Shown piece by piece: positions 23,401 through 46,057 of a DNA stretch of 64,000 nucleotides. Below the pieces are notes generated by a model that searched no databases, was not told the DNA's origin, and saw nothing but the letters and a program-made list of their open reading frames with translations. The DNA lies in contig NZ_KZ319292.1 in the NCBI RefSeq assembly GCF_002744755.1, positions 62,001-126,000 on the forward strand, written 5' to 3'. The translations under genes were made by a program, and so were the position numbers. Source of the stretch: Leeuwenhoekiella nanhaiensis (GTDB lineage Bacteria; Bacteroidota; Bacteroidia; Flavobacteriales; Flavobacteriaceae). The number at the start of each line of letters is the position of its first letter. The stretch's first letter is position 1.

Positions 23401-24511
23401 TATGCGCAATTCGTTCAGAGTTATACAAATCATTGCTTATTAAAGTCAATGCTTCACCGCTTGGATCAACAAAATTTAAACCGGCACTGGTTCCAATCCA
23501 CATATTGCCGGAAGAATCCTTATAAAGCGCTGATATTGTTGCGTCAGAGACACTTGAGTTATTTTCTTTAGGTAGATACCATTTAATGGAGGGTTTTTCA
23601 GGATTATCAAAAAGACTTTCACGGTCTAAAATATTTAAGCCACCGTATTGAGTGCCAATCCAGATTTGACCAAAATCATCTTCTTCGAGAGATAGAACTA
23701 CATCGTCACTCAACCCTCTTGTTGTCTTTTGTTGGCCTAAATGAAATTCTTTTCCAGTAGCCGTAAATACTTTAAGTCCCGAGTGTGTTCCTACCCATAC
23801 ATTATTCTTTTGATCAACTAAAACCGCATTTATAATGGCTTCATCTTTGTTTTTATAGGGATATCGAATAACTTCTTTTCTTTTGATATTAAGTTTATTT
23901 AAACCGTTATCAAAGGTTCCTATCCAGACTATACTATCATTTTGATTTGTTAAACATGATATTTTGTTTGATGAAAGCGAATTTAAATGCTCTGACTGAT
24001 GGGAATAAAAACCAACACTTTTATTGTTTTTAAAGATATGTAATCCTTCATCATAGGCTCCAACAAGCAATTTGTTGTCCTTAAGTTGTAATACTGAATT
24101 AATGCTATTTGATATATAAGCGAGATCGGATTGGAAAAATGAAAATTCTTCGGTACGCGGATTAAAAATATTTAGCCCACCATCTGTTGCAACAAATAGC
24201 GAACCATTTTCACACCTCCTTATTTGTTGAATATAGTTGTTAGTTAGATTAGAAGTTTCCTGTCTGAATACTTTAAATTGATTCCCGTCATATCTGTTAA
24301 TGCCGTCTGATGTCCCCACCCATATAAAACCAAGTTTGTCCTCTTCAATAGATTTGACCTGATTGTTTGATAAACCGAAGTCTGTATCAATAGTATAAAA
24401 GGTTAGCTTATTGGATAAACGTTCCTGTTTAGTAGTTTGATTTTGACCAAATAGGATCAAACCAAACAATTGAAATATAAATAATGTCTTAACAGAATTT
24501 TTAGTTAACAT
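20411..24511 (-). CDS. Hybrid two-component system regulator (HTCS) of the PUL
   Basis: A 1366-residue one-protein two-component system. In order: signal peptide (about 1-23), about a dozen Reg_prop propeller motifs (WVGTSDGINRYDG, IWIGTQYGGLNILD and similar, about 35-690), a Y_Y_Y domain (about 730-790), one membrane helix (about 795-818), HisKA with phospho-acceptor His855 in FSHELKTP, HATPase with DTGSGIK and DGTGIGLALSRR, a receiver with VDDN and phospho-acceptor Asp1163 in ISDVMMP, and an AraC-type HTH at about 1264-1366. Such proteins sense oligosaccharide in the periplasm and activate the neighbouring PUL. All phosphotransfer residues are intact. It diverges from the second GH43 gene; the 226-bp gap holds a candidate operator. 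Confidence 0.96.
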   Translation of the reverse strand: MLTKNSVKTLFIFQLFGLILFGQNQTTKQERLSNKLTFYTIDTDFGLSNNQVKSIEEDKLGFIWVGTSDGINRYDGNQFKVFRQETSNLTNNYIQQIRRCENGSLFVATDGGLNIFNPRTEEFSFFQSDLAYISNSINSVLQLKDNKLLVGAYDEGLHIFKNNKSVGFYSHQSEHLNSLSSNKISCLTNQNDSIVWIGTFDNGLNKLNIKRKEVIRYPYKNKDEAIINAVLVDQKNNVWVGTHSGLKVFTATGKEFHLGQQKTTRGLSDDVVLSLEEDDFGQIWIGTQYGGLNILDRESLFDNPEKPSIKWYLPKENNSSVSDATISALYKDSSGNMWIGTSAGLNFVDPSGEALTLISNDLYNSERIAHNRVFAIEELSENKLILGTDGGGIDLYDLKSGNFDYGVYSSSNKLSTNYINTIYKDSKDRLWIGTYKGGITCVDLKTQKWSYYLQGSIGKGSDVRSIFENKEGQLWVGTNRDGFFKYSESKKDFINEEPLEKAFGKIDVRDITEDSKGTLWLATYGNGILSYDLEDQSAYSYHTNNLENLRGNVVYSITVLTTGEVVAGTKHGGLIRFNPNSTKAISITETEGLSNNTVNSIINWDDNYLWLATDKGINKYNIETNTIETINLPKSFQITEFNLGAILKSSSNKLFLGSNRGIFEFNPEALDQNSSAGPIVLEDLLIFNESVPISGEDDKGILSSSMLYKKQINIPYDKTIFSIDFTSLSFPFSENITYSYILEGFNENWIDLKNANRINFSNIPPGKYTLKIKQNNLPNATDLKTLDINILPPFWRTLPAYLFYLAVIIILVVSGLKYYSERIHLKNSLLFEQKQRKLEHELNEERIRFYTGFSHELKTPLTLILAPLETLLDEIVHKRHRKSLKLIRRNADNLLSFINKLLEFRKSEEGLSKLEINEYNLSKNLSQWLSGYEPVVKKKNINLMVTMPQKTIKVYCDLEKIHVIVNNLISNAIKYTPDGGKINVILEVDESYVNIVVSDTGSGIKTSDLNHIFEWYYQSENKFKKDGTGIGLALSRRFAHLHKGFLEVESKANQGSTFTLKIPNDDTLLDAYLQLEERPQINKKEVEKRISDSEPVNPEPKANSVYLKAESSRKLVLLVDDNPDILEFLESALGSEYDLIQAEDGEEGINLATKYIPDLIISDVMMPVKSGLDLCQFIKNKKETSHIPVILLSAKSNYETIETGYDEGADDYIVKPFNVQVLRARVKNLIESREFLLQKVQDSQSEVSDNQEDSKILENEKRFLAELKQLIFEQTQEGDLSVETIAEHIGMSRSSLYRKVKAITGQSINEYIRDIRLEKAAYLIEKENFTVSQAAYEVGFGDAKYFRKIFKEKFGRTPSAFKQNPL

Positions 24512-24737: not shown

Positions 24738-25901
24738 ATGCATATTAAAAGTGTTTATTTCTTATTGGTAGCTTTTGCAATTAGCGCATTGACTAATGCC
24801 CAGCAAAATATTAAGAATACTTCCTTTCTTCCCGGAAAGGTATGGTATGATATGCAAGGAGATACTATAAATGCTCATGGGGCTGGTTTTTACTACGAGA
24901 AAGGGGTTTACTACTGGTATGGCGAGCACAAGAGTCGTAATAGTTTAGCTGAAGTAGGTGTTCGCGTTTATAGCTCAAAAGATCTGCTTAATTGGAAAAA
25001 TGAAGGTGTTGCCCTTGAGGTAAGTAAAGAAGCATCTTCTGAAATTACTAGAGGCTCAGTCATTGAGAGACCTAAAGTTATTTATAATGAGAAAACCGGA
25101 AAATATGTGCTGTGGTTTCATCTTGAACTTAAAGGAAAAGGATACGAGGCAGCGAGAACAGGGGTGGCAGTCAGTGATTCACCCGTTGGACCTTTCAGGT
25201 ATTTAAAATCGTACAGACCGAATGCAGGTGTGTGGCCACAAAATTTTAATTCTCAACAGAAAAAGACAAATTCTAACGAATCGTCCTATAAGTGGTGGAC
25301 AAAAAAATGGTCAGAAGCTCTTGTAAATGGTCTATACGTTCGCAGAGACTTTGAAGAAGGGCAAATGTCAAGAGATATGACTGTTTTTGTTGACGATGAT
25401 GGGAAAGCGTATCACATACACTCTTCAGAAGAGAATCAAACGCTGCATATATCACTCTTGACAGAAGATTATCTAGACTTTACTGACACCTGGGTTCGGG
25501 TGCAGCCTGGTGGACAAAACGAGGCTCCTGCTGTCTTTAAAAATGGCGATTATTATTATATGATTACTTCGGGCTTGACTGGTTGGGACCCTAACGCTGC
25601 CCGTTCTTTCCGGGCAAGATCAATGCTTGGTCCCTGGCAAAGTCTTGGCAACCCGGCAAAAGGAAAAGGGGCTGAAGTTACATTTAATTCGCAAAGCACT
25701 TATGTGTTGCCTGTAGAAGATAGAAAAGATACTTTCATTTTTATGGCTGATCGCTGGAACCCCAAAAATCATCAGGATGGAAGGTATGTGTGGTTGCCAG
25801 TAATTATAAATAATGAAGGAAACCCTGAAATAAAATGGACTGATGAATGGAATTTTAACGAAAAAAGCTATTCAACTGAAAATGAATTAGGTGGAAAATA
25901 A
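24738..25901 (+). CDS. GH43 glycosidase, exo-beta-1,3-galactanase-like (subfamily 24/34 type)
   Basis: A 387-residue secreted enzyme with a signal peptide (cleavage after LTNAQ). The usual GH43 DP motif near the N terminus is replaced by INAHGAGFYYEKGVYYWYGE, as in the exo-beta-1,3-galactanase branch, which lacks the standard catalytic base. Glu110 in IERPKVIYNEKTGKYV and Glu262 in GGQNEAPAVFKNGDYYY match the acidic residues conserved in that branch. RDMTVFVDDDGKAYHIHSSEEN is a further typical block. An insert of about 40 residues (160-205) is more like subfamily 34, whose specificity may differ, so the exact activity is open. It is the first plus-strand gene of the PUL after the regulator. 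Confidence 0.8.
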   Translation: MHIKSVYFLLVAFAISALTNAQQNIKNTSFLPGKVWYDMQGDTINAHGAGFYYEKGVYYWYGEHKSRNSLAEVGVRVYSSKDLLNWKNEGVALEVSKEASSEITRGSVIERPKVIYNEKTGKYVLWFHLELKGKGYEAARTGVAVSDSPVGPFRYLKSYRPNAGVWPQNFNSQQKKTNSNESSYKWWTKKWSEALVNGLYVRRDFEEGQMSRDMTVFVDDDGKAYHIHSSEENQTLHISLLTEDYLDFTDTWVRVQPGGQNEAPAVFKNGDYYYMITSGLTGWDPNAARSFRARSMLGPWQSLGNPAKGKGAEVTFNSQSTYVLPVEDRKDTFIFMADRWNPKNHQDGRYVWLPVIINNEGNPEIKWTDEWNFNEKSYSTENELGGK

Positions 25902-26059: not shown

Positions 26060-29000
26060 ATGAAACATAATATTCTTAATATTAAAAGAGCCTATTCTTT
26101 GATGCTGCTGGTTTTGAGTTGCACATTGAGTCTAAATACATATGCCTTAAGACTTGATAATTCTGAAGACGTGGCGTTGCAGAAAGTGGTTACCGGTACT
26201 GTATATGACGACAGTGATAACAATCAACCTCTTATCGGGGTTACGGTTGTTGAAAAAGGAACTAATAATGGTACTGCTACAGATTTTGATGGAAATTATT
26301 CTATTCGGGTCGCTCCGGGGGCTACCCTGGTTTTTTCGTTCGTAGGTTTTGAAACGAAGGAAGTATTGGTTTCAGACCAGGAAAGTATAAATGTAACTCT
26401 GAGTCTTAGCTCAGAATCATTGGAAGAAACCGTTGTAATAGCCTTTGGAGGTAAGCAGCTTAAAGAAAGTCAGGTAAGTTCTATCGCAACTATCAACCCC
26501 GCAGAACTAAAAGGACCTACCAATAACCTTACTAATATGATCGCGGGTCGCGTACCGGGAATGATTTCTTTTCAGCGGTCTGGTGAGCCGGGGGCAGATA
26601 ACTCTGACTTCTTTATTCGGGGTTTGAGTACTTTTGGGAGTGGTAAGCGTAATCCCCTCATATTAATTGATAATATTGAATCTACGCCCACTGATCTTGC
26701 TCGTTTGCAACCAGACGATATAGACACCTTTTCAGTCTTAAAAGATGCGGCAGCTGCTTCAGTTTATGGAGCGCGTGGTGCAAATGGCGTGATTCTCATT
26801 ACCACAAAAAGTGGTAAAGCCGGTAAGGCAAAATTTAGTGCACGTGCAGCATCGCGAATTTCAACTAATACTGATAATTTTCAGTTTGCAGATAATATTA
26901 CCTATATGAATCTGGCAAATGAGGCTGCACTTACGCGTGATCCTCTGGCGGCATTGCCTTATTCGCAAATTAAAATTGATCGTACAGCGGCAGGAGATAA
27001 TCCATATTTGTACCCCAGCAATAATTGGATAGATCAAATCCTAAAAGACTATACCGTTAACCAAAGTTTTAATATTAGTGCCAGTGGAGGCTCAGAACGT
27101 GCGCGCTATTATGTTTCAGGAACTTACAATGTTGATAATGGAATTTTGGATGTTAATCCCATAAATAACTTTAACAGTAATATTAAACTCCAAAATTATT
27201 CGCTTAGAAGTAAATTGGACATAGATTTAACACCAACGACTTTCGCAACAGTTAATATCTACGGTCAGTTTGACGACTATAATGGTCCAATCGCTCAAGG
27301 TGGAGACATCATTGCTTCAACGGTAAATGCAAACCCGGTAGCATTTCCAGCAATCTTTCCTTCAGAATTTTATCCTATAGCAGAGCATCCTTTATTTGGT
27401 AATGCTCCCTTGTCATTGTCAAGTAATGCTCTATATAGAAATCCATATGCAGAGATGGTTAGAGGGTATCGTACTACCAAGAACTCAACGGTACAGGCAC
27501 AACTTGCAATTGATCAAAAACTTGACTTTATTACTAAAGGGCTTAAACTAGGAACTATGAATTATATAAGACGTTATAATTCCTATTCAATAAGTAGAGC
27601 CTATAATCCTTTTTACTATCAGGCTTCCCGTAATCCGGTTGATAACAGTATAATGTTAAGAGTACTAAATGACGGTACTCAGGCCTCCATAGGCACCCCC
27701 GGAACTGAATTTTTAAATCTTGCCGGAGGCGGGAATGTTTCAAATTCCAGAATTTACAACCAGTTTACACTTAATTATGATAAAACATTTGCTGAAAAGC
27801 ATGTGGTTTCGGGTTTTCTAATCAATGTTTTACAAAGTTATGAGACTACGGAATATGATAACCTTCAGCAATCGTTACAATATCGTAACCATACTTTTTC
27901 TGGAAGGTTTACCTATGCTTTTGATAGAAGGTATATTGCCGAATTTAGCTTTGGGTATAACGGTTCAGAGCGTTTTGATCGCAGCAACAGATATGGTTTT
28001 TTCCCTTCATTTGGTGTAAGCTATGTAGTTTCAAATGAAGCTTTTTTTGAAAAATGGAAAGAAACTGTGACCAATCTCAAGTTGCGATTTACCTACGGTA
28101 AGGCCGGAAACGACGAAATTGGAAATGCAGATGAGGATAGATTCTTTTATTTATCAAGAGTAAATGCGAATAACGGAGGATTTGGAGCTCTGTTCGGTCA
28201 GGATTATAATTACTACCGCCCGGGTATATCGATAGATCGTTATGCAAATCCAAATATTGGTTGGGAGATTTCGGAGCAATACAATTTTGGTATAGACATT
28301 GGTTTATGGAGGGATTTAAATATTACTGCAGAGATTTATCAACAAAACCGTTCAAATATACTTCAAAGACGTACCGAAATTGGGGATGTAATAGGTCTAA
28401 CCGCACAGCCTCAAGTAAATTTTGCAGAGCTTGAGTCAAAGGGTATTGATTTATCTTTAGATTATAACAGGCAAATAAATCAGGAGTGGTGGACACAGGC
28501 AAGAGCTACGTTAACTTTTGCGACTAATGAGGTTAAACAGACTAATGAGCTCAACTATCCCGATGATTTAAGTTACCTCTCTCAGGTAGGTAATAATGCA
28601 TCTCAAATGTACGGGTATCTTGCTGAGCGTTTATTTACAGATCAGGAAGAAGTAAATAATTCACCAGCACAATTTGGTCAATATACCGGTGGAGATATTA
28701 AGTATCGTGATGTAAATGGCGATGGCGTGATTACACCTTTAGACCGCGTACCTATTGGTTTACCAACTACACCTGAATTAATCTATGGTTTTGGAGGCAC
28801 TGTTGGATATAAAGATTTTGACTTAAGTATTTTCTTTCAGGGATCTGCCCGGTCCTCTTTTCAAATCGATCCCAGAGCTATTTCACCATTTGTTTTGGGT
28901 ACGGGTGATAACACTGGTAGACAAAATGGCTTGCTTAAAATCATTGCAGACAGCTACTGGTCTGAAGACAACAGAGACCTATATGCATTTTGGCCTCGCC

Positions 29001-29272
29001 TAAGCTCAACAGTAATTGAGAATAATGTGCAGAGTTCATCCTGGTGGCTGCAAAACAATGATTTCTTAAGACTTAAGAATCTTGAGTTTGGCTATCGTGC
29101 TTCAGAGCGCCTTACAGAATCCTTAGGCTTACGCTCTTTACGTGTTTATGCGAGTGGAATCAACCTGGCCGTTTGGAGCAGCTTTAAGCTTTGGGATCCT
29201 GAAATGGGAGGAAATGGTTTAGGATATCCTATTCAATCTACTTACAACTTAGGTGTTCAATTTGACTTTTAA
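26060..29272 (+). CDS. susC: SusC/RagA family TonB-dependent outer-membrane transporter
   Basis: A 1070-residue TonB-dependent transporter. After the signal peptide (about 1-30) comes a carboxypeptidase-regulatory-like domain (VTGTVYDDSDNNQPLIGVTVVEKG, about 40-120), then a plug with LTNMIAGRVPGMISFQRSGEPG and GVILITTKSGKAG, and a barrel ending in the hydrophobic YNLGVQFDF. No STN domain, so no sigma/anti-sigma signalling role is expected. With SusD it imports oligosaccharides across the outer membrane using TonB energy. It is 12 bp upstream of susD and begins the operon susC-susD-two binding lipoproteins. The symbol denotes the family; the substrate is not starch on the evidence of the neighbours. 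Confidence 0.96.
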   Translation: MKHNILNIKRAYSLMLLVLSCTLSLNTYALRLDNSEDVALQKVVTGTVYDDSDNNQPLIGVTVVEKGTNNGTATDFDGNYSIRVAPGATLVFSFVGFETKEVLVSDQESINVTLSLSSESLEETVVIAFGGKQLKESQVSSIATINPAELKGPTNNLTNMIAGRVPGMISFQRSGEPGADNSDFFIRGLSTFGSGKRNPLILIDNIESTPTDLARLQPDDIDTFSVLKDAAAASVYGARGANGVILITTKSGKAGKAKFSARAASRISTNTDNFQFADNITYMNLANEAALTRDPLAALPYSQIKIDRTAAGDNPYLYPSNNWIDQILKDYTVNQSFNISASGGSERARYYVSGTYNVDNGILDVNPINNFNSNIKLQNYSLRSKLDIDLTPTTFATVNIYGQFDDYNGPIAQGGDIIASTVNANPVAFPAIFPSEFYPIAEHPLFGNAPLSLSSNALYRNPYAEMVRGYRTTKNSTVQAQLAIDQKLDFITKGLKLGTMNYIRRYNSYSISRAYNPFYYQASRNPVDNSIMLRVLNDGTQASIGTPGTEFLNLAGGGNVSNSRIYNQFTLNYDKTFAEKHVVSGFLINVLQSYETTEYDNLQQSLQYRNHTFSGRFTYAFDRRYIAEFSFGYNGSERFDRSNRYGFFPSFGVSYVVSNEAFFEKWKETVTNLKLRFTYGKAGNDEIGNADEDRFFYLSRVNANNGGFGALFGQDYNYYRPGISIDRYANPNIGWEISEQYNFGIDIGLWRDLNITAEIYQQNRSNILQRRTEIGDVIGLTAQPQVNFAELESKGIDLSLDYNRQINQEWWTQARATLTFATNEVKQTNELNYPDDLSYLSQVGNNASQMYGYLAERLFTDQEEVNNSPAQFGQYTGGDIKYRDVNGDGVITPLDRVPIGLPTTPELIYGFGGTVGYKDFDLSIFFQGSARSSFQIDPRAISPFVLGTGDNTGRQNGLLKIIADSYWSEDNRDLYAFWPRLSSTVIENNVQSSSWWLQNNDFLRLKNLEFGYRASERLTESLGLRSLRVYASGINLAVWSSFKLWDPEMGGNGLGYPIQSTYNLGVQFDF

Positions 29273-29284
29273 AAAAACTTAAAT

Positions 29285-31252
29285 ATGAAAAATATACTAT
29301 TTAAAAAATCTTTTAAGCGAAAGTTAGTGCTGGTACTGGCACTACCCTTTGTGATGATTTATAATGCCTGCCAGGATGATTATCTGGATGTAGTTCCTGA
29401 TGGTCTGGCTACTGTTGATAAAATTTTTAATTTGAGACAGGAAGCTGAAAAGTACTTATTTACCTGTTACTCATATATGCCAAGGTTAGGAGATTTGCGT
29501 AGAAACGCGGCCTTTCTTGCCGGTGATGAAATGTGGGTACCAGACAACCGTGAAAACGGGGATTACTTTGCATTAGAGATAGCATTAGGAAGGCAACGTG
29601 TTGCAAACCCATATTATGATGTATGGCAGGGAGAGTATCAGGGAGGTTTACCTTTTGACGGCTCTGAAATCTGGGATGGTATCAGACACTGTAATATTTT
29701 TATTGAGAATATGTCTGATCCTAACAATGTACCTGATATTACAGATACTGAGCGGGAACGCTGGATTGCAGAAGCTAAGTTCTTAAAGGCCTATTATCAT
29801 TTTTATTTAATGCGGCATTACGGGGCGATACCTATTATCAAAGAAAACGTTTCTGTAGATGCTCCAACACCTGCATTTGATTTACCGCGTGATCCTTATG
29901 ATGAGGGAATTAATTATATAGTAGAACTTCTGGATGAAGCCGCTGCAGTATTACCACCGGTGATCGCAGATATCAATACAGAATATGGTCGCATAACCTC
30001 GGTTATTGCAAGATCATTAAAAGCACGGGTTTTGGTAACTGCCGCCAGTCCATTATACAATGGTAACCCAGATCTTTCGGTAGTAATTAATAACGATGGT
30101 ACACCTTTATATAATACCACTTTTGAAGCTAATAAATGGCAAATTGCGGCTGATGCAGCAAAAGAAGCCATTGATGCAGCTGAAGCTGCAGGACTAAGAT
30201 TGTATGAGTTCAATGAGGCTTTAACGGGATTTGATCTTACAGATACGACTGTTACCAAGTTGAGCATTCGTAATGCAATCACAGACCCTGAAAGCCTGGA
30301 AATTATTTGGCCTAATACTCAGAGTCTTACAAATGGCGCAGACGGCCTTCAGGCCAGTGCTATGGCACCTCTCGAGGTTGGTCATAATACCCGGGTGGCA
30401 CGTAAAGTAATTTCACCTACCATTACGATGGCAAAATTATTTTATACTGATAATGGAGTGCCAATCACGGAAGATAAAGCTTACGATTTTAACGATATCC
30501 TTGAGTTGAGAGAAGCTCAACCTGATGAGCGTTATAATATAGAAGAAGGATACCGCACTTCAAGATTAAATTTTGACCGGGAACCTCGTTTTTATGCAGA
30601 CTTGGGTTTTGATGGAAGTATGTGGTATAAGCGTGATGCTTTGGGAGATGAAACCAAATGGCACATAGAAGGTAAATTCGGGGACTATTCAGGAAGTGAT
30701 CATCCATTCTTTTTTAACGAGACCGGGTATTACTGTAAAAAACTGGTGAATTGGAGAATGACATTTAGTAATGATGGTGGAACCTTTGAGACCTATGCCT
30801 GGCCCGAAATGCGTCTTGCAGATTTATATTTGCTCTATGCAGAAGCTCTTAATGAAGTGTCAGGACCTTCACAAGAAGTTTATTCCTACTTAGATCAAAT
30901 ACGAGAACGTGCTGGTTTAGATGGTGTTGTAGAGTCCTGGGCAGCCCATTCTAACAATCCAAATAAGCCAACAACTCAAGAAGGTTTAAGAAGTATTATA
31001 CAACAGGAGCGTATGATAGAATTGGCTTTTGAAGGACAACGATATTGGGATCTTCTTCGCTGGAAACGCGCGGTTCAGGAATTTAACGATAATGTGCAGG
31101 GTTGGAATATTAAAGGTGATGACGAAGCATCTTACTATCAAATACGCACCATTCATCTACAAAACTTTATTTCACCTCGTGATTATTTCTGGCCACTTAG
31201 TGAAACGTCTTTAATCCGTAACACAAATCTGGTTCAAAACCCAGGTTGGTAA
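29285..31252 (+). CDS. susD: SusD/RagB family nutrient-binding outer-membrane lipoprotein
   Basis: A 655-residue surface lipoprotein with lipobox YNAC (Cys29). The N-terminal SusD-like domain includes YLDVVPDG and the helical TPR-type part RWIAEAKFLKAYYHFYLMRHYG. The C-terminal RagB/SusD domain has MRLADLYLLYAEALNEV and IIQQERMIELAFEGQRYWDLLRWKR. It is the lid of the SusC transporter and binds the glycan at the cell surface. It is about 100 residues longer than the average SusD, which fits the branch paired with DUF4959/DUF4998 lipoproteins as found here. Confidence 0.96.
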   Translation: MKNILFKKSFKRKLVLVLALPFVMIYNACQDDYLDVVPDGLATVDKIFNLRQEAEKYLFTCYSYMPRLGDLRRNAAFLAGDEMWVPDNRENGDYFALEIALGRQRVANPYYDVWQGEYQGGLPFDGSEIWDGIRHCNIFIENMSDPNNVPDITDTERERWIAEAKFLKAYYHFYLMRHYGAIPIIKENVSVDAPTPAFDLPRDPYDEGINYIVELLDEAAAVLPPVIADINTEYGRITSVIARSLKARVLVTAASPLYNGNPDLSVVINNDGTPLYNTTFEANKWQIAADAAKEAIDAAEAAGLRLYEFNEALTGFDLTDTTVTKLSIRNAITDPESLEIIWPNTQSLTNGADGLQASAMAPLEVGHNTRVARKVISPTITMAKLFYTDNGVPITEDKAYDFNDILELREAQPDERYNIEEGYRTSRLNFDREPRFYADLGFDGSMWYKRDALGDETKWHIEGKFGDYSGSDHPFFFNETGYYCKKLVNWRMTFSNDGGTFETYAWPEMRLADLYLLYAEALNEVSGPSQEVYSYLDQIRERAGLDGVVESWAAHSNNPNKPTTQEGLRSIIQQERMIELAFEGQRYWDLLRWKRAVQEFNDNVQGWNIKGDDEASYYQIRTIHLQNFISPRDYFWPLSETSLIRNTNLVQNPGW

Positions 31253-31268
31253 TTTAAAAATTGAAACT

Positions 31269-32486
31269 ATGAGAACATTAATTTTAAAATCAGTAGTCCT
31301 ATTTATACTCTTATCTATAGGTCTAAGCTGCTCCGAAGAAGTCGAGCAGGTTCCTTTGGAATCTAATAGCACTGCACCGGCACCCGTATCCAATGTTGAT
31401 GTGGAAAACTTACCGGGTAAGGTTAAGTTGACTTTTACACTTCCCAAAGATCCGGATCTTTTGTACGTAAAAGCTAATTATACGCTTCCCACAGGAAGAG
31501 AGATGGAGGTAAAATCATCTTTGTATTCTAATTCTATGATTTTACAAGGCTTTAGTGGTAATGAGGAGGTAGATGTTGAGGTTGTTGCTGTAAACCGTAG
31601 CGAGGTTGAATCAGAACCCGTATTGCTTAGTGTGAAGCCTTTACGGTCTCCAATATTCGACGTCTATGAAAGTTTAAGCGTAGGAAGTGCGTTTGGAGGT
31701 ATTTTTGTAAACGCTGATAATCCGGTACGGGAGGATCTGGCAATTTTAATTCTTACCAAAAATGAAGAAGGTGACTATGTAGCTGATCCTAATAGCATCT
31801 ATACTTCTACTGATGATATTAGACGCGTAGTACGAGGTTATGATACGATACCAAGAGAGTTTGCATTTACCATTCGTGACAGATGGCTCAATTATACTGA
31901 CACACTGGTTACCTCAATTACTCCATTATTTGAGCAGGCAATACCTAAGTCAAGCTATGGAGATTTGCGATTGCCCAATGATGCTCCCGGGCATAATTCT
32001 ACTCCAAAGAGCGGAATGTGGGATAATGATTTTATTAATTGGCCTCGCTGTTATTTAACTCAGGGTAATTTTATTGCTGATACGCACATAACAAGTTTTG
32101 ATATTGGGGTTCTTGCCAAGCTAAGTCGAATAGTTATATGGGACTACCCGGAATATTACAATAGCGGTAATGGTACCGGAAGGGCTTATTATTATAACGT
32201 TTGTATGAAGGAATTCAAAATTTACGGTTCTGCAGAATTAGAAACTACCGGGGACCTTGATAAATGGACTCTTTTAGGGACTTACAAGGAAGTTAAACCA
32301 TCCGGATTACCTTACGGCCAGAGTACCGGTGAAGATTTTGAAACTGCAAACGCCGGGTTTAGTTGGGATGTTGACCCTAGTGCCGGTCCCATGCGTTACA
32401 TCCGTATAGAGATGATTGATAATTGGGCAGGTACTTACTCTATGGGTATATCTGAGCTTCAGGTATACGGTAACACAAAATTTTAA
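31269..32486 (+). CDS. Surface glycan-binding lipoprotein, DUF4959/DUF5126/DUF5000 type
   Basis: A 405-residue lipoprotein (lipobox GLSC, Cys21). The N-terminal third is a DUF4959 Fn3-like domain (APVSNVDVENLPGKVKLTF), the middle a DUF5126 module and the C-terminal half a DUF5000 discoidin-like domain (WPRCYLTQGNFIADTHITSFD, ending in SMGISELQVYGN), a fold shared with CBM32. Proteins of this build follow SusD in many Bacteroidota loci and are taken to be surface glycan-binding proteins. 16 bp after susD, so in the same operon. The ligand is unknown. Confidence 0.85.
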   Translation: MRTLILKSVVLFILLSIGLSCSEEVEQVPLESNSTAPAPVSNVDVENLPGKVKLTFTLPKDPDLLYVKANYTLPTGREMEVKSSLYSNSMILQGFSGNEEVDVEVVAVNRSEVESEPVLLSVKPLRSPIFDVYESLSVGSAFGGIFVNADNPVREDLAILILTKNEEGDYVADPNSIYTSTDDIRRVVRGYDTIPREFAFTIRDRWLNYTDTLVTSITPLFEQAIPKSSYGDLRLPNDAPGHNSTPKSGMWDNDFINWPRCYLTQGNFIADTHITSFDIGVLAKLSRIVIWDYPEYYNSGNGTGRAYYYNVCMKEFKIYGSAELETTGDLDKWTLLGTYKEVKPSGLPYGQSTGEDFETANAGFSWDVDPSAGPMRYIRIEMIDNWAGTYSMGISELQVYGNTKF

Positions 32487-32505: not shown

Positions 32506-33720
32506 ATGAAAAATTTAAACTTATATATATACGCAGCGGTCGTAAGCTGTTTTATAGTTCTTTGGTCATGTTCAGATCAGGAGTATGATGATTACAAGAA
32601 ATTTGCTGATGGAGGTGAAATAAATTATACTGAAAAAGTAGATTCGTTAAAATCCTTTTCAGGGAAAAACAGAATTATGCTTCAGGGAATTATTGATGCT
32701 GACCCAAAAATCACTGAATTTCGTGTTTTTTGGAACGACGGGAGAGATTCTGTTTCTGTACCGATAACACGAAGTGGTGGTGTTGATACACTTGAGGTCA
32801 CGATTGCTGATATTCCGGAGAATATCTACAACTTTCAGATCCGTACGTATGACGCAGCAGGTAATAAATCTTTAGTATCTAATGTAACGGGTGCGGTATA
32901 TGGAGAACGGTATCAAAATACCTTGTTTAATAGACCAGTCCTGGCAAACGATTTGGTTAGTGGAACATTAACTATTTCATACGCAAGTATGGATCTTACA
33001 ACAGGTGTTATTGGAACCGAAGTTCTATTGGATGGAGCCTCTGAGCCCATCTTTGTTCCCATAGATTCAGAAGAGTATGAAATTTCAGATTATGTCGTAA
33101 ATAGTAGCTATAAATACAGGACCTTGTTTTTACCTGAAGAGACAGCTATCGATACCTTTTATACTGATTATATTTCGTTTACTCCAATTCCCAAGCCTAT
33201 ACTGGTAAATGCTAAGGCTCCTTTTGCCACAGTAAAACGAGGAGGTGAAGTAGGAGCGAATAACAGATGGGGAACTCTTGCAGATTGGACCACCAACGAT
33301 GCCGCTAAAACTTTTGGAAATCCACCAGTAGGCGGTTTTGACGATAATGAAGGTCTAGCTGCAATGGGGCAGGAAAGCTGGGGTTCACCACTTATTAGAA
33401 ATGGTAAAATCTACCAACAGGTAGAAGTCAAAGAAGCCAGTTATGCGCTTAATGTTTTTGTAAGAAATGGTAACAAGTTGAATGAGGCGGGTACTAAAGT
33501 TTACCTGGCAATTGTTGATGGAGATGGTTTACCAGACGTTGATAATATCGTAGATAACCCAATTGTTTTAGGCTATAAGCGAATTACAGGAACAGGCGAT
33601 TATGTATTAAATTTTGATGCAAATCAGGATATGACAGTTTCTGTAGGTATAGTTACAGATTTTACTATTGATCAAAGTTATTGGAAGATTATGTCTTGGG
33701 ATATTGTCGTACAGAACTAA
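32506..33720 (+). CDS. DUF4998 surface lipoprotein, probable second glycan-binding protein
   Basis: A 404-residue lipoprotein starting at the ATG at 32506, 19 bp after the previous stop. An in-frame ATG at 32416 lies inside the preceding gene and would bury the lipoprotein signal VLWSC (Cys22), so I reject it. The N-terminal half is a DUF4998 tandem Fn3-like region (KSFSGKNRIMLQGIIDADPKI, NIYNFQIRTYDAAGNKS). The C-terminal half is a compact beta domain rich in Trp and Gly. It is the last gene of the susC operon and a terminator follows. A carbohydrate-binding role is inferred from position. Confidence 0.8.
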   Translation: MKNLNLYIYAAVVSCFIVLWSCSDQEYDDYKKFADGGEINYTEKVDSLKSFSGKNRIMLQGIIDADPKITEFRVFWNDGRDSVSVPITRSGGVDTLEVTIADIPENIYNFQIRTYDAAGNKSLVSNVTGAVYGERYQNTLFNRPVLANDLVSGTLTISYASMDLTTGVIGTEVLLDGASEPIFVPIDSEEYEISDYVVNSSYKYRTLFLPEETAIDTFYTDYISFTPIPKPILVNAKAPFATVKRGGEVGANNRWGTLADWTTNDAAKTFGNPPVGGFDDNEGLAAMGQESWGSPLIRNGKIYQQVEVKEASYALNVFVRNGNKLNEAGTKVYLAIVDGDGLPDVDNIVDNPIVLGYKRITGTGDYVLNFDANQDMTVSVGIVTDFTIDQSYWKIMSWDIVVQN

Positions 33721-33732
33721 AAACATTATTTA

Positions 33733-33764
33733 AAAGGGAAGAGGTCTTAATCTTCCCTTTTTAT
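33733..33764 (+). terminator. Terminator of the susC-susD operon
   Basis: AAAGGGAAGA (33733-33742) pairs perfectly with TCTTCCCTTT (33751-33760) over an 8-nt loop, and the T run continues to 33762. It starts 13 bp after the DUF4998 stop. Confidence 0.88.
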
Positions 33765-33847: not shown

Positions 33848-35053
33848 ATGAAATATTTAAAATATATATTTTTTTCAACTAGCATTCTGTTGTGGAGTCT
33901 TAGTTGCTCACCGGAAGATGCTAAAGAAGAACCTAAAGAGGATCCTGTCGTTGAGCTAAATTTAGCTACTGTTAAAACTAATGAGGTTTCAGATGTAGAT
34001 GCTTATAAGGCTACAATATCAGCCAAGGTTGAAGATGATGGAGGCAGTACAATTAAAGAGCGTGGAATATGTTATGCTCTGGCACCTAGTCCAGATTATT
34101 CAGATAATAGGGCTACACCTAATTCATTTAAAGGATCTGGCGAATATGACATTAACCTTTCTGATCTTGAAGATAACACAACCTACTTTGTCCGTGCATT
34201 TGCGACAAATTCAAAAGGAATTGCTTATGGTAACGAACTGTCGTTCAAAACTCTTAATGCCGATGTACCCAAATTTGCGATAAGTGAAACCAAAGTAAGT
34301 GGGGTTCATGATATATGGGTTGAAACCACGTTGATTGAAACCGGTGACGCTAATATTAAGGAGGTAGGTATTGTTTACGGCACAACAGGTGATTTAAATA
34401 TTGAAACGAATCTTGTCGTTGTTCAGGAGGAGGTGAAGGCTAAATATTTAAGCAGAATGACCAAACTCGAAGAAAAAACAACCTATTATTTTAAAGCTTA
34501 TGCCGTCACAGATAATGATGACGTTTTTTATAGCGAACCTGAAACGTTTGAAACGATAAATTCTGGCGACTTTACGTATACTATAAACGGATACAATGAA
34601 AACAATGCGGTGTTTGTGAGGTTGAAAAATGCTATCGAAAGAGTGCAATACTATTATAACAATTTCACTTCGATTAAAAAACACGTCTGGGTAAATTATG
34701 TCCCTGGTGTGACTACTGCCGATGCTAACTTTGATGGCTGGATCCGTTTTGGTTCTAATCAATCCTATCAACAAACTGGAACAGCCCTGCACGAGGTGGC
34801 TCATACGGTAGGAGTAGGGACACATTCTAAGTGGAATGAACTTCTTGAAGGCGGAATCTATCAGGGCTCAAGAGCAAATCAAATTTTAAAGCTTTTAATT
34901 CAGGATGAGGATGCAGCAATAAAAGGAGACGGTTTACATTTTTGGCCGTTTGGAATAAACGGAGCTCACGAAGATGATGGTCAGGATATGACATATATTA
35001 TTAATACCTTAATTATTCAAGGAATGCGTGCTGATGGATTACCCATCAACTAA
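33848..35053 (+). CDS. Lipoprotein with two Fn3-like domains and an HExxHxxGxGTH putative metallopeptidase domain
   Basis: A 401-residue lipoprotein (lipobox SLSC, Cys20). Two Fn3-like domains span about 35-135 and 140-240. The C-terminal 150 residues contain HEVAHTVGVGTHSKW (315-329), with His315, Glu316 and His319 forming an HExxH zinc motif and His326 as a possible third ligand. In metzincins the third His is at +10 from the first; here it is at +11, so it is not a standard metzincin. A later block GDGLHFWPFGINGAHEDDG is also seen in uncharacterised Bacteroidota and actinobacterial lectin-linked proteins as I recall the family. It stands alone between the susC operon terminator and the BNR_4 operon. 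A surface peptidase acting on a glycoprotein substrate is a guess; a non-enzymatic binding role is possible. Confidence 0.6.
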   Translation: MKYLKYIFFSTSILLWSLSCSPEDAKEEPKEDPVVELNLATVKTNEVSDVDAYKATISAKVEDDGGSTIKERGICYALAPSPDYSDNRATPNSFKGSGEYDINLSDLEDNTTYFVRAFATNSKGIAYGNELSFKTLNADVPKFAISETKVSGVHDIWVETTLIETGDANIKEVGIVYGTTGDLNIETNLVVVQEEVKAKYLSRMTKLEEKTTYYFKAYAVTDNDDVFYSEPETFETINSGDFTYTINGYNENNAVFVRLKNAIERVQYYYNNFTSIKKHVWVNYVPGVTTADANFDGWIRFGSNQSYQQTGTALHEVAHTVGVGTHSKWNELLEGGIYQGSRANQILKLLIQDEDAAIKGDGLHFWPFGINGAHEDDGQDMTYIINTLIIQGMRADGLPIN

Positions 35054-35315: not shown

Positions 35316-36632
35316 ATGAATTTCAGATTACTCATTTCATCAATTCTTGTGCTTGCCATTTTTGGCAGCTGCGCTGGTGTTCCTCTAGCCGAAACTGCAA
35401 AAGAAAGTGTTGTAGGCGAGGGCTGGTCTTTCAATTCGGTGAATACGGTAATCTTCAGGCAAAATGCGGTTACGACCTATGCCAATATACAATTTACAGG
35501 CTATTACGATGCCGAAGCACGGGTAATTCTGGCCAAACGTAAACTGCCCCGTGGCAAATGGGAGGTTTATAAAACGCGATTTACAGGCAATGCAAAAGAT
35601 GCACACAATGCGATTAGTATTGCGGTTGATGGAAAAGGTTATTTGCACGTTAGCTGGGATCACCACGACAATCCGTTGCGTTATGCTAGGAGTTTAGAAC
35701 CTTTTGGTCTTGAACTTTCTGAAATGCAACCGATGATCGGTTTCGACGAAAACAAAGTTTCTTATCCACAGTTCTACAATTTGCCCTCAGGAGATTTAAT
35801 CTTTATGTACCGCTCGGGGAAGTCGGGTAGCGGAAGTTTAGTTTTAAACAGATATGATTTAGATACCGAAAACTGGACTACACTGCACAGCAATCTCATA
35901 GATGGTGAAGATAAGCGTAATGCCTATTGGCAGGCCTATGTAGATCAGGAGGGTACCATTCACCTTTCTTGGGTGTGGCGCGAAAGCTGGGACGTTTCGA
36001 CCAATCACGATATCGCTTACGCGCAGTCAAAAGATGGCGGTAAAACCTGGAAAAAATCAGACGGGAGTCTTTATGAATTGCCCATTACGCAGCGCAGTGC
36101 AGAGTATGCTGCGATCGTTCCGCAAAAGAATTCGCTGATCAATCAGACGGCGATGACTACTGACAGTCAGGGTAATCCCTACATTGCTAATTATTGGAAT
36201 GTGGACGATGCAACCCAATTTCACGTGGTTTATCTCAAAGAAGGTCAATGGCAAACCGAAAATACCGCATTCAGAACAACGGGTTTTCAGTTGGGCGGCG
36301 GCGGAACAAAAAAAATACCCATCTCGCGGCCTGAAATTTTTATCGATGAATCTCAGGGCAAGAGGCTTTACCTGCTCTTTCGTGATGCAGAGCGCGGATC
36401 AAAAATAGTCCTCGCTTCGCGGGATTTAAACAAAGAAGAATCCTGGAAGCTAACTGATCTGACTAAAGCATCTGTTGGCGATTGGGAACCCAATTTTGAC
36501 AAAGAATTATTTAAAAAAACAGGAAAGCTTCACCTATTTGTGCAAAAGGTGAATCAGGTGGATGGCGAAGGGCTTCAAAACAGTAAGCCTACACCTGTTA
36601 AGATTTTAGAGTATAATACATTACAAGAATAA
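35316..36632 (+). CDS. BNR_4 seven-bladed propeller lipoprotein (GH145/PL24/PL25/PL42-like)
   Basis: A 438-residue lipoprotein (lipobox FGSC, Cys18/19). The fold family is BNR_4, a seven-bladed propeller. Visible blocks are DAHNAISIAVDGKGYLHVSW then DHHDNPLRYA, and YWQAYVDQEGTIHLSWVWRE with TNHDIAYAQSKDGGKTW. This fold includes ulvan lyases (PL24, PL25), L-rhamnose-alpha-1,4-D-glucuronate lyases (PL42) and GH145 alpha-L-rhamnosidases acting on Rha-GlcA caps of arabinogalactan. The paired His in HNAI and DHHDN are candidate catalytic residues. GH105 in the same operon is the usual partner of a lyase, since it removes the unsaturated uronate. First gene of the long enzyme operon; lyase versus hydrolase is undecided. 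Confidence 0.75.
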   Translation: MNFRLLISSILVLAIFGSCAGVPLAETAKESVVGEGWSFNSVNTVIFRQNAVTTYANIQFTGYYDAEARVILAKRKLPRGKWEVYKTRFTGNAKDAHNAISIAVDGKGYLHVSWDHHDNPLRYARSLEPFGLELSEMQPMIGFDENKVSYPQFYNLPSGDLIFMYRSGKSGSGSLVLNRYDLDTENWTTLHSNLIDGEDKRNAYWQAYVDQEGTIHLSWVWRESWDVSTNHDIAYAQSKDGGKTWKKSDGSLYELPITQRSAEYAAIVPQKNSLINQTAMTTDSQGNPYIANYWNVDDATQFHVVYLKEGQWQTENTAFRTTGFQLGGGGTKKIPISRPEIFIDESQGKRLYLLFRDAERGSKIVLASRDLNKEESWKLTDLTKASVGDWEPNFDKELFKKTGKLHLFVQKVNQVDGEGLQNSKPTPVKILEYNTLQE

Positions 36633-39764
<3,132 letters not shown>

Positions 39765-39772
39765 GAATTACA

Positions 39773-41731
39773 ATGCGAAAGATTTCTTCATTTTTTATAC
39801 CAATCATTTTTAGTCTGGTCGCTGTAAATGCCGGCCTGGCGCAAACTCCTGCAAAGGTGAGTTCGCCGGACGGTCACATTTCGGTTACAGTCAGGTTAGA
39901 AAATGGAAAACCCGTTTACAGTGTTGCTCACGATTCTGATATTTTTCTGGAAGATTCTCCTCTAGGTCTAAAAACTTCAATCGGTGATTTTAGCGAAGGA
40001 CTTACTATTGAGAGTTCAGCCTCAAACACTATTGCGGACTCCTATGAGTTGAACCGTGCTAAAGTGAGTAAAGTTCAATACAATGCAAACGAGTTGGTCA
40101 CCTCTTTTACAAATGAAGCTAAGGACACGCTTCAGGTTATTTTCAGGGTAAGCAATCGTGATGTAGCCTTTTCCTATAAGTTAATCGGGAAAGATCTCAA
40201 TACCAAAGTAAAAATTCTCAGCGAAGCTACAGCATTCAATCTGCCCGATCAGGCAACCACATTTTTAAGCGCTCAGGCTTTGCCGATGACCGGATGGGAG
40301 CAAACCAAACCTTCTTATGAAGAGGGTTATACCTTTGACGCGCCTTTGGGAGAAGCGTCACAGTATGGGGTGGGCTATACGTTTCCGGCACTCTTTAAAA
40401 ATGAAACTAAAGGTTGGTTACTTATTTCAGAGACAGGCGTAGATGGTACCTATCCCGGTTCACGATTGGGAGAGTCAGGTACTGACGGGGTGTTTCCATT
40501 ATTGTTTCCGCAGGAAGGAGAAAACAATAGCATTGGCGCTACCTATGCGGCGATGGCGATGCCGGCTCAAACGCCCTGGCGCACCATTACCTTGGGTAAA
40601 ACCTTGAAGCCCATCGTAGAATCTACCGTAGCTTTTGATTTGGTGAAACCAAAATACCGGGCTACGACAGACTACCAAACCGGTAGGGCAACCTGGAGCT
40701 GGATTGTTTGGCAGGATGGCAGCATCAACTATGAAGATCAGATTAAGTTTATTGATCTCTCGGCTGCATTGAATTTTGAATACGTGCTCATTGACAACTG
40801 GTGGGATGCCAACATTGGCCGGGATAGAATGGAGGAACTGGTAGATTATGCCCGCTCTAAGAACGTCTCAGTCTTGCTTTGGTACAATTCAAACGGCTAT
40901 TGGAGCAATGCGCCACAGACCCCGCAGGATTTTATGAACACCGCTTACAAGCGTCAGCGCGAGATGGCCTGGATGCAAGAAATAGGGGTTAAGGGTATTA
41001 AAGTTGATTTCTTTGGGGGTGATAAGCAAACCACCATGCAGCTTTATGAAGACATTCTTAACGATGCTAATAATTATGGTTTGGGCGTGGTTTTTCACGG
41101 CTGTACTTTACCGCGTGGCTGGGAGCGTATGTATCCCAATTATATGTCTTCAGAAGCGGTACTGGCTTCCGAAAATTTAATTTTTACTCAGGAAGCTTCA
41201 GATCAGCACGCGTATAAAAGTACCTTGCATCCCTTCATACGGAATACCGTTGGAGCGATGGATTTTGGCCCCGTTTTTCTCAACAAACGTTTAACTAAAG
41301 ATCAACAGGGCGGCTCTATTCGTAAAACCACCGAAGCTTTTGAGCTGGCAACCGGCGTCCTGTATTTTTCGCCCATTCAGCATTTTGGCCTTACGCCAAA
41401 TAACCTGGACGAACAACCGCAGTTTGTGCTCGATTTCTTAAAAGAAGTTCCGGCAACCTGGGATGAGACGGTTTACATAGGCGGTGAGCCCGGTGATTAT
41501 GCGGCTATCGCAAGGCGAAAAGGACAGAAATGGTATGTGGCGGTAACAAACGGCAAAAAAGAAGATCGCACATTAGAGCTAAACCTTCCAATGCTTAAAA
41601 ATGCAGAAATAACACTTATTTACGATAAATCAGACCGAACAGCCGGTCTCAAGTCAATGAAAATCATTAAAAATGGTAAATTGAAATTCAAATTACTGGG
41701 AGAAGGCGGTGCCGTGATCACTGGCAATTAG
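39773..41731 (+). CDS. GH97 retaining glycosidase (alpha-galactosidase-like)
   Basis: A 652-residue secreted protein with a signal peptide (cleavage after AGLAQ). It has the GH97 layout: N-terminal beta-sandwich with SSPDGHISVTVRLENGKPVYSV, a catalytic barrel with YVLIDNWWDANIGRD, GIKVDFFGGDKQTTM and YMSSEAVLASEN, and a C-terminal beta domain. Asp412 in KVDFF is the nucleophile position of retaining members such as B. thetaiotaomicron alpha-galactosidase BtGH97b; inverting SusB-type alpha-glucosidases lack it. Retaining GH97 includes alpha-galactosidase and beta-L-arabinopyranosidase, both plausible for arabinogalactan ends. A Ca site is usual for the family. Confidence 0.9.
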   Translation: MRKISSFFIPIIFSLVAVNAGLAQTPAKVSSPDGHISVTVRLENGKPVYSVAHDSDIFLEDSPLGLKTSIGDFSEGLTIESSASNTIADSYELNRAKVSKVQYNANELVTSFTNEAKDTLQVIFRVSNRDVAFSYKLIGKDLNTKVKILSEATAFNLPDQATTFLSAQALPMTGWEQTKPSYEEGYTFDAPLGEASQYGVGYTFPALFKNETKGWLLISETGVDGTYPGSRLGESGTDGVFPLLFPQEGENNSIGATYAAMAMPAQTPWRTITLGKTLKPIVESTVAFDLVKPKYRATTDYQTGRATWSWIVWQDGSINYEDQIKFIDLSAALNFEYVLIDNWWDANIGRDRMEELVDYARSKNVSVLLWYNSNGYWSNAPQTPQDFMNTAYKRQREMAWMQEIGVKGIKVDFFGGDKQTTMQLYEDILNDANNYGLGVVFHGCTLPRGWERMYPNYMSSEAVLASENLIFTQEASDQHAYKSTLHPFIRNTVGAMDFGPVFLNKRLTKDQQGGSIRKTTEAFELATGVLYFSPIQHFGLTPNNLDEQPQFVLDFLKEVPATWDETVYIGGEPGDYAAIARRKGQKWYVAVTNGKKEDRTLELNLPMLKNAEITLIYDKSDRTAGLKSMKIIKNGKLKFKLLGEGGAVITGN

Positions 41732-45187: not shown

Positions 45188-46057
45188 ATGAGAATCCTGT
45201 TCCTGCTGCTTAGTTATGCTTTTGTGATTTCGTGTAAATCTTCAAAATCCGGGCAGGTGGGGGATTCTGCTATTCAAACTCCACAAGGCTACGAGCTGAT
45301 CTGGCACGATGAGTTTGACACCGGTACTAAGCCCGATCGGGATTCATGGAACTATGAGTACGGTTTTGTACGCAACAAAGAGCTGCAATGGTATCAGGAA
45401 GACAATGCCACTCTTGCTAACGGAAATCTGGTCATCACAGGTAAACGCGAAGAGCTTGTAAATCCCGGTTATGAACCGGGTAGTACTAATTGGAGTAAAA
45501 GTCGCGAAACAGCGCAGTATACGTCTTCAAGTATCAATACCCGGGATCGGTTTGAGTTTATGTTCGGTATTGTAGAAGTACGCGCTAAGATTGATACCGC
45601 AAGCGGAATGTGGCCGGCAATCTGGACGTTGGGCGTTGAAAAAGGCTGGCCTTCAAACGGCGAGATCGATATGATGGAATACTATCAGATTGACGGAAAA
45701 CCCCACATTCTGGCTAACGCAGCCTGGGGAGCACACTGGCAGGATGTGTCTTGGGACAGCGCTAAAATTCCCTTTACTGAGTTCTTAAAGAAAGACCCGC
45801 AATGGCCTGAAGAATTCCACATCTGGAAAATGGAATGGACTCCGCAGTTTATCAAACTCTATCTGGACGATGCGTTAATCAACGAGATTGATTTAGCCGA
45901 AACCAAAAATCCCGACGGGTTTAATGGCTTTCACCAACGGCATTATATTTTACTCAATTTAGCGATTGGTTCCAACGGTGGTGATCCTTCAAGCACGCAA
46001 TTCCCTAAAGAATACCTGGTAGATTATGTACGGGTGTATCAGAAAACAGATTCTTAG
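45188..46057 (+). CDS. GH16 endo-glycanase lipoprotein (putative endo-beta-galactanase)
   Basis: A 289-residue lipoprotein (lipobox VISC, Cys16) with one GH16 jelly-roll domain. The catalytic motif is GEIDMMEYY with Glu159 nucleophile, Asp161 and acid/base Glu164, i.e. the ExDxxE form with a beta-bulge as in laminarinase-like members. WHDEFD, GIVEVRAKIDTASGMWPAIW and YLLDYVRVYQK-type blocks are also present. The protein is a surface lipoprotein, as expected for the endo-enzyme that makes the first cuts outside the cell. GH16 contains endo-beta-1,3-galactanases of arabinogalactan loci, and also laminarinases; locus content favours galactan. 2 bp before the GH105 gene. Confidence 0.85.
   Translation: MRILFLLLSYAFVISCKSSKSGQVGDSAIQTPQGYELIWHDEFDTGTKPDRDSWNYEYGFVRNKELQWYQEDNATLANGNLVITGKREELVNPGYEPGSTNWSKSRETAQYTSSSINTRDRFEFMFGIVEVRAKIDTASGMWPAIWTLGVEKGWPSNGEIDMMEYYQIDGKPHILANAAWGAHWQDVSWDSAKIPFTEFLKKDPQWPEEFHIWKMEWTPQFIKLYLDDALINEIDLAETKNPDGFNGFHQRHYILLNLAIGSNGGDPSSTQFPKEYLVDYVRVYQKTDS

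Follow-up and report, generated by a model that had tools for sequence, protein, structure and literature searches.

The lipoprotein gene that starts at position 33,848 of the analyzed stretch of Leeuwenhoekiella nanhaiensis DNA (the window, 64,000 nucleotides) probably encodes a surface zinc endopeptidase, which would cut the protein part of arabinogalactan-proteins (AGPs) or of similar glycoproteins. This putative activity is assigned to a predicted zincin domain at the C-terminus of the protein. A peptidase for the protein core had already been proposed in a first-pass annotation of the window, and it is still the best reading of the predicted activity, as it is supported by the intact HExxH motif, by the lipoprotein nature of this product of a polysaccharide utilization locus (PUL), and by the GH43 and GH145 genes of the locus. 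The coordinates of the gene, of its conserved sites and of the neighboring genes are collected in Table 1.

Table 1. Features of the lipoprotein gene and of the surrounding PUL (positions in the window)
Feature	Position	Strand	Basis
Hybrid two-component regulator, probable PUL regulator	20411..24511	-	
GH43, exo-beta-1,3-galactanase type	24738..25901	+	Pfam GH43; PDB matches
SusC-like TonB-dependent transporter, module gene 1	26060..29272	+	Plug and CarboxypepD_reg domains
SusD-like lipoprotein, module gene 2	29285..31252	+	NCBIfam SusD E 2.8e-11, 42 bits vs cut-off 725
SusE-like lipoprotein DUF4959-DUF5126-DUF5000	31269..32486	+	Pfam
DUF4998-DUF5013 lipoprotein, probable glycan-binding protein (presumed role)	32506..33720	+	Pfam; kept gene order
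Lipoprotein gene, 401 aa, Fn3-like N-terminal half and C-terminal HExxH domain	33848..35053	+	ORF, translation, relatives
Lipoprotein signal, Cys20 the presumed lipidated residue	33848..33907	+	By eye from translation
C-terminal domain as modeled, residues 236-401	34553..35050	+	AlphaFold2 pLDDT 95.2, pTM 0.90
HEVAH 315-319 (His315, Glu316, His319), proposed to bind zinc and supply the general base	34790..34804	+	80/80 rows of alignment A2
His326, third ligand of the first-pass annotation	34823..34825	+	His in 7/80 rows of A2
His364 in GDGLHFWPFG, proposed third zinc ligand	34937..34939	+	80/80 rows of A2
Glu375, invariant, rival third ligand in a Glu-zincin arrangement	34970..34972	+	80/80 rows of A2
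GH145-type rhamnosidase/lyase	35316..36632	+	PDB 5muk E 1.1e-139
GH2 beta-galactosidase-like	36639..39764	+	
GH97	39773..41731	+	
GH16, named PDB relatives mostly beta-1,3-glucanases and laminarinases	45188..46057	+	
GH88 family (Pfam Glyco_hydro_88), presumed GH105-type unsaturated uronyl hydrolase	46060..47247	+	

The gene is present in one copy in the genome. As read by eye, its product begins with a plausible lipoprotein signal, MKYLKYIFFSTSILLWSLSC followed by SPEDAKEE, with Cys20 at the end of the signal, which together with the adjacent SusC and SusD genes agrees with the earlier description of a PUL surface lipoprotein. The N-terminal half matched the Fn3-like models fn3 (20.3 bits vs 25) and Pur_ac_phosph_N (21.1 bits vs 30), in both cases only below the curated cut-off. 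Residues 1-138 were also similar to the N-terminal part of AlphArabdaseBT0360, an arabinanase model (E 1.6e-19, 69.9 bits vs a cut-off of 600). A comparable Fn3-like part (38% identity over 126 residues) belongs to a protein with a GH16-like domain, which is encoded directly upstream of a flavobacterial relative (L145:7303-8469), i.e., the neighbors share a domain. The region between the DUF4998 gene and the lipoprotein gene contains a terminator-like hairpin (33732-33761), the site of which would fit an attenuator placed after the SusC/D and binding-protein genes; one such hairpin was found vs 1.0 expected in shuffles, and the promoter and terminator scan gave the same counts as shuffled sequences.

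The SusC and SusD genes form an adjacent pair, which defines the locus as a PUL, and the lipoprotein gene is followed, in this order, by genes for GH145-type, GH2, GH97, FG-GAP/UnbV, GH16, GH88, DUF2264, and GH2 proteins. The best PDB match of the GH43 protein was 6eug (E 2.6e-135), which the depositors named Beta-glucanase, followed by 7bys (E 1.8e-55), a galactan 1,3-beta-galactosidase, and 5flw (E 1e-38), an exo-beta-1,3-galactanase. The GH145-type protein matched the NCBIfam model AlphRhmnaseBT3686 (E 3.2e-180, 599 bits vs a cut-off of 700), and its PDB match 5muk corresponds to BtGH145 (PMC8406133). The same study treats GH43_24, GH145, and GH105 as enzymes of AGP degradation (PMC8406133), the GH43 of the window being assigned here at the family level. 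Together the exo-beta-1,3-galactanase type of GH43 and the GH145 point to arabinogalactan, which upholds the link to this glycan made in the first-pass annotation, while the laminarinase-like GH16 does not speak for galactan. The C-terminal domain of proteins related to the SusE-like lipoprotein is of the galactose-binding type and CBM32-like, as the abstract of PMC8211771 states. The PUL also contains a 1130-aa FG-GAP/UnbV_ASPIC protein (41786-45178), which adjoins GH97 in three other loci as well (L005, L006, L145), a 208-aa open reading frame (47302-47928) for which neither Pfam nor NCBIfam gave a match at E<=0.001, and, at its end, a 907-aa MG2-domain protein (53449-56172).

Relatives were collected by scanning GTDB contigs with two DNA seed patterns, which gave 215 in all, and the best 80 were kept. 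Judged by record title, these 80 loci come from Bacteroidota (32), Actinomycetota (25), Myxo/Delta (8), Clostridia (7), Fibrobacterota and Chitinispirillaceae (6), and others (2), and the closest contig, from L. parthenopeia, encodes a domain that is 93% identical. The family is rare: it was found in 2 of 395 sampled Bacteroidota genomes, that of the window among them, in 4 of 299 from the window's own family, itself included, and in 1 of 296 from Actinomycetota, the phylum of Streptomyces scabiei, this one being the search-center genome itself. Two related plasmid records, both from Clavibacter phaseoli, were found, in addition to one chance match. A phage origin was considered and dropped, as only three weak phage matches to unrelated genes (E 4-7) were obtained and no viral-contig relative was confirmed.

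As judged from sequence comparisons, the HExxH domain appears to belong to a family for which Pfam and NCBIfam have no entry. The domain of the window protein (residues 236-401) had no match in either database at E<=1, and the commonest Pfam matches among the 80 aligned members were weak, namely matrixin in 12 (best E 0.0028; not listed for the window protein), APD1-4_N in 7 (0.00048), and M57 in 7 (0.012); the NCBIfam matches were equally weak (best E 0.0019). Solved structures gave no match by sequence, the best phmmer hit being an unrelated stretch of RNA polymerase (E 0.06), and the best profile match was MMP-12 at E ~1 over 19 residues. A known non-peptidase family in which the motif is mostly absent was not found either; no family matched the domain, and the motif was present throughout the alignment. 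No description of this HExxH lipoprotein family was found among the open-access articles listed, as judged by titles and the starts of abstracts, and therefore the novelty is relative to Pfam, NCBIfam, PDB, and that literature. Among 11 proteins scanned for fusions, the domain was joined to dockerin (L017, L041, L063), ricin-type lectin (L003, L028, L041, L052, L065), or LamG (L056), and single-domain forms exist as well. One flavobacterial relative of 1122 aa (L146:8778-12143, minus strand) has repeated N-terminal modules and a match to a type IX secretion tail below the cut-off, and it may represent the same domain secreted by another route.

Alignment A2, which comprises the window and 79 of the best 80 of the 215 relatives, includes close kin (hhalign kept 57 of 80 sequences, Neff 3.1); L047 was left out, as its gene is split into two frames. 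All 80 rows keep His315, Glu316, His319, Gly322, Gly324, and His364, and the same is true for Trp366, Pro367, Gly369, Asn371, Glu375, and Asp396. Such conservation of HExxH and His364 exceeds chance. The count for HExxH is biased, since this motif was part of one of the two seed patterns; neither of them covered the region of His364. In the window protein residues 315-329 are HEVAHTVGVGTHSKW and residues 360-369 are GDGLHFWPFG, so that the four residues listed in the first-pass annotation (His315, Glu316, His319, and His326) and this block are present where they had been placed. Its view that the motif is not that of a normal metzincin also held, because position 325, the slot of the third metzincin histidine, is Thr in 74 of 80 rows and otherwise Gln, Tyr, or Leu, and none of the 80 has the His or Asp of HExxHxxGxxH/D. 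Met393 is Met in only 66 of 80 rows, and hence a Met-turn is not established.

The weight that had been put on His326 as an off-register third ligand did not hold for the family. Position 326 is His in 7 of 80 rows (four Flavobacteriaceae, which are the window, L005, L006, and L007, plus L052, L054, and L056) and Ser, Thr, or Ala in 68, while HExxH and the alternative also named in the annotation, the histidine of GDGLHFWP, are invariant. These counts make His326 an unlikely family ligand and His364 the better candidate. The proposed site is HExxHxxG-x41-His, in which His364, located after 41 residues behind Gly322, would serve as the third zinc ligand as in leishmanolysin. The insertion of 62 residues between the conserved Gly and the third His of leishmanolysin, reported in a passage of PMC5572447, provides a precedent for such a separated histidine.

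The AlphaFold2 models of the window domain (pLDDT 95.2, pTM 0.90) and of the Streptomyces scabiei member (pLDDT 95.6) were confident, with the modeled order of a strand, a long helix, strands, the HExxH helix, loops, and a last helix. The PDB fold search gave no match at E<=0.001 for either model (0/241 and 0/291), with TM values by query length of 0.3-0.4. Below this level of significance metzincins were at the top of both lists: BMP1 and MMP-12 (probability 0.98) in one, with the Wss1 protease near the top, and HCE-1 (a hatching enzyme, probability 0.95), BMP1, and MMP-12 in the second. Gluzincin aminopeptidases were lower in both, from rank 10 in the second. Predicted viral proteins gave two fold matches at E<=0.001 (TM 0.61 and 0.52), the second of which comes from an algal virus and is named putative metallopeptidase. 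No M8-like relative was confirmed in viral contigs.

Profile comparisons using hhalign were made with ten leishmanolysin-related bacterial sequences (L136, L133, and two further plasmid matches were left out) and with 17 matrixin sequences, which came from 19 of 30 fetched loci after leaving out L108 and L114. The leishmanolysin-related profile aligned with a probability of 94, the 42 aligned columns running from HExxH, motif included, as far as TGxxA; His364 was paired with their third His, but with low confidence. Once the motif was removed, 9 of 200 column shuffles scored as high as the post-motif part and 11 of 200 as high as the pre-motif part. Matrixins aligned with a probability of 95 over the N-terminal half and HExxHxxGxG, and with the motif removed 1 of 200 shuffles reached the pre-motif score and 19 of 200 the post-motif score, in a null distribution that has outliers. 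The pre-motif part is nearer to matrixins than to the leishmanolysin-related proteins, and for the latter the post-motif part stands only slightly above shuffles. On the basis of the models and alignments the domain reads as a zincin of uncertain kinship, with metzincin character and an M8-like order of ligands.

Other assignments of the ligands and of the family fit these data less well. It is very improbable that His326 is the third ligand, even in Flavobacteriaceae alone. When L144, L145, and L146 are added, His326 is found in 7 of 7 Flavobacteriaceae sequences, besides the three other rows of the alignment, so a clade-limited role is possible, but the sequences with His326 keep His364 too. 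A Glu-zincin, in which Glu375, located 56 residues after His319, would be the third ligand and His364 would have another role in the active site, seems unlikely. Glu375 is as invariant as His364, and gluzincin aminopeptidases are among the weaker fold matches; on the other hand, the predicted HExxH helix stops at residue 320, immediately past the second His, with GxG coming next, which is metzincin-like, and metzincins come first in the fold lists. There is a somewhat better chance, though still a small one, that the protein is a short, diverged true member of family M8 and not of a separate family. The elements occur in the same order, which is HExxHxxGxGT, W, TGxxA, and a distal His near Trp, and leishmanolysin has its own insertion before the third His. 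This assignment is weakened by the lack of a PF01457 match for the window protein, by the absence of PF01457 from the list of 17 Pfam families that the 80 members gave at E<=1, by the above post-motif score of shuffled profiles, and by the absence of leishmanolysin (1lml) among the 50 fold matches listed for either model. The arrangement with His364 as the distal ligand of a separate family is the one preferred here.

The gene is part of a recurrent module in other genomes. Of the best 80 loci kept from the 215, 21 have the order SusC, SusD, SusE-like, DUF4998, and the peptidase candidate, all in Bacteroidota (21 of the 32), with carriers in Leeuwenhoekiella, Flavobacterium, Mucilaginibacter, Pedobacter, Sphingobacterium, Parapedobacter, and one Sphingobacteriaceae MAG, and the same order is present in two of three further Flavobacteriaceae genomes. 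The module of L047 ends with the split gene, and an extra gene precedes the last one in three of the 21 (L021, L026, L029), which is weakly GH16-like, as is a relative of it in L144. In 11 of the 21 modules (L008, L009, L010, L015, L016, L033, L035, L038, L044, L045, L047) no homolog of the glycoside hydrolases of the window occurs within the stretch examined, which extended ~1.3-1.7 kb ahead of SusC and at most 10 kb past the gene, a comparison by which other glycosidase types would be missed. Seven of these 11 belong to Pedobacter or near kin and may reflect one event. The neighbors that were tested are ClpC (L016), an AcrB-like protein (L015), and, for L009, a clostripain-like C11 peptidase and a protein that no Pfam model matched; the others were inspected by eye. 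The C11 peptidase gene (L009:14856-16712, Pedobacter alluvionis) is downstream of the five-gene module. In L035 the next gene encodes a second family member with a lectin-like N-terminal part, in which HExxH and the distal His were recognized by eye.

Outside Bacteroidota the gene was also found beside glycan-related genes. In Streptomyces scabiei it is divergent from a neighbor with a secreted endo-beta-1,6-galactanase as its top PDB match, and homologs of this neighbor occur in L067, L075, and L079, which makes 4 of the 15 Streptomyces loci among the best 80 of 215. A Streptomyces protein of ~590 aa is encoded directly downstream of the gene in three loci (L061:10505-12289, L067:7164-8948, L073:10528-12288) and has no Pfam family at E<=1e-5 in the copies scanned (L061, L073). 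A Clavibacter plasmid carries two family 43 genes within ~4 kb. A match to the GH43 of the window was present in 17 of 22 carrier genomes and absent from 5, and the matches outside Bacteroidota, at 36-50% identity, may include other GH43 enzymes. Within Bacteroidota, 11 of 15 carriers had such a match vs 2 of 46 other sampled genomes, the window's own being excluded from the latter (Fisher p 2e-7), a comparison confounded by lifestyle and genome size, as many carriers are polysaccharide degraders with large genomes.

The glycan-related partners, i.e., lectins, dockerins, and galactanase neighbors, raise the question of whether the domain is a zincin-fold zinc enzyme that acts on glycan rather than peptide bonds and serves as the depolymerase of the minimal five-gene loci. 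The 11 modules would fit this role, as the SusC/D there would otherwise lack a recognized depolymerase. We consider it improbable, because the zincins among the fold matches are mostly named peptidases, although the second list also has the endoribonuclease YbeY, and because peptide import by SusC/D is possible (as discussed in passages of PMC11992087). The position of the gene behind those of two probable binding lipoproteins could also be that of a noncatalytic, glycan-binding surface protein derived from a peptidase, for which we see hardly any chance, given that none of the 80 rows lacks the putative catalytic residues and that the domain occurs in single-domain, dockerin-fused, and lectin-fused forms. 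The points that count against a peptidase for AGPs include the lack of fold matches at E<=0.001, the low TM values, the gluzincins in the lists, the shuffle scores outside the motif, the variation at Met393, the laminarinase-like GH16, the confounded GH43 comparison with its 5 of 22 carriers lacking a match, and the finding of the galactanase in just 4 of 15 Streptomyces loci.

A surface peptidase could work as follows. The C-terminal domain would carry out catalysis as a zincin-superfamily zinc endopeptidase, with zinc held by His315, His319, and, past the 41-residue insertion behind Gly322, His364, and with Glu316 activating the water molecule. The lipid anchor would keep the protein on the cell surface, where its Fn3-like domains would form a stalk and SusC/D and the two glycan-binding lipoproteins would be its neighbors. 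There it may cut the protein part of AGPs or of similar plant or algal glycoproteins into peptides or glycopeptides for SusC/D, while the galactanase, the GH145, and other hydrolases of the PUL would trim the glycans. The working model for this scheme is the M60 peptidase BT4244, encoded in a SusC/D locus for which glycopeptide import was proposed, and passages of the same source describe SusC/D systems able to import peptides (PMC11992087). More tentatively, and with less than an even chance of being right, the domain may define a new peptidase family that recognizes arabinogalactan-type glycans on hydroxyproline-rich proteins, a plant or algal counterpart of mucin O-glycopeptidases, in which case the five-gene loci would be glycoprotein utilization loci that import glycopeptides without a glycoside hydrolase of their own. 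The fact that in some relatives it is the sole recognized enzyme beside an uptake system hints at a bacterial route to plant and algal glycoproteins.

The biology of AGP PULs is written in glycosidase terms. The words "peptidase" and "protease" are absent from the main text of the B. plebeius AGP study (PMC8406133), and a review of arabinogalactan degradation does not use "peptidase" and has "protease" a single time, where it lists proteins of the plant wall (PMC8424115). If the reading is true, a dedicated surface zincin, conserved across Leeuwenhoekiella, Pedobacter, Streptomyces, and dockerin-bearing Clostridia, would fill this peptidase gap and would name a family missing from Pfam and NCBIfam. 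It also predicts, in a testable way, that glycopeptides are imported by SusC/D.

Several known peptidase families share features with this domain. Matrixins (M10, PF00413) align over the N-terminal half and HExxHxxGxG, and they differ in the third His of HExxHxxGxxH, which is replaced by Thr in most members here. No match to a Pfam family of M60 (PF13402) was found for the window protein or among the families listed for the 80 members. We considered filing the domain formally under M8, M10, or M60 and decided against it, because M8 and M60 gave no match, M10 matched weakly in 12 of 80, and the third His is absent. Leishmanolysin (M8, PF01457) has the same succession of HExxHxxG, an insertion, and a His, the ligand role of His364 being predicted, and bacterial leishmanolysin-related zinc metalloendopeptidases also resemble the domain in TGxxA and the His-Trp block. 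The differences are the gap of 41 residues in the window protein instead of the 62 given for leishmanolysin in PMC5572447, the length of the domain, which is ~160 aa in all, and the weak similarity outside the motif. Svx peptidases of Pectobacterium, compared here by their description in PMC10815107, are likewise secreted zincins thought to act on plant cell-wall glycoproteins, their targets presumably being plant extensins, but they are described as gluzincins. The M60-like mucinases of Bacteroides PULs, to which the first-pass annotation had compared the protein in idea, are an apt parallel, because an M60 peptidase encoded beside SusC/D in a PUL is documented: BT4244 is a surface lipoprotein peptidase accompanied by SusC/D and a glycan-binding protein (passages of PMC11992087), while the locus described here is equipped with a galactanase and GH145 and is not a mucin locus.
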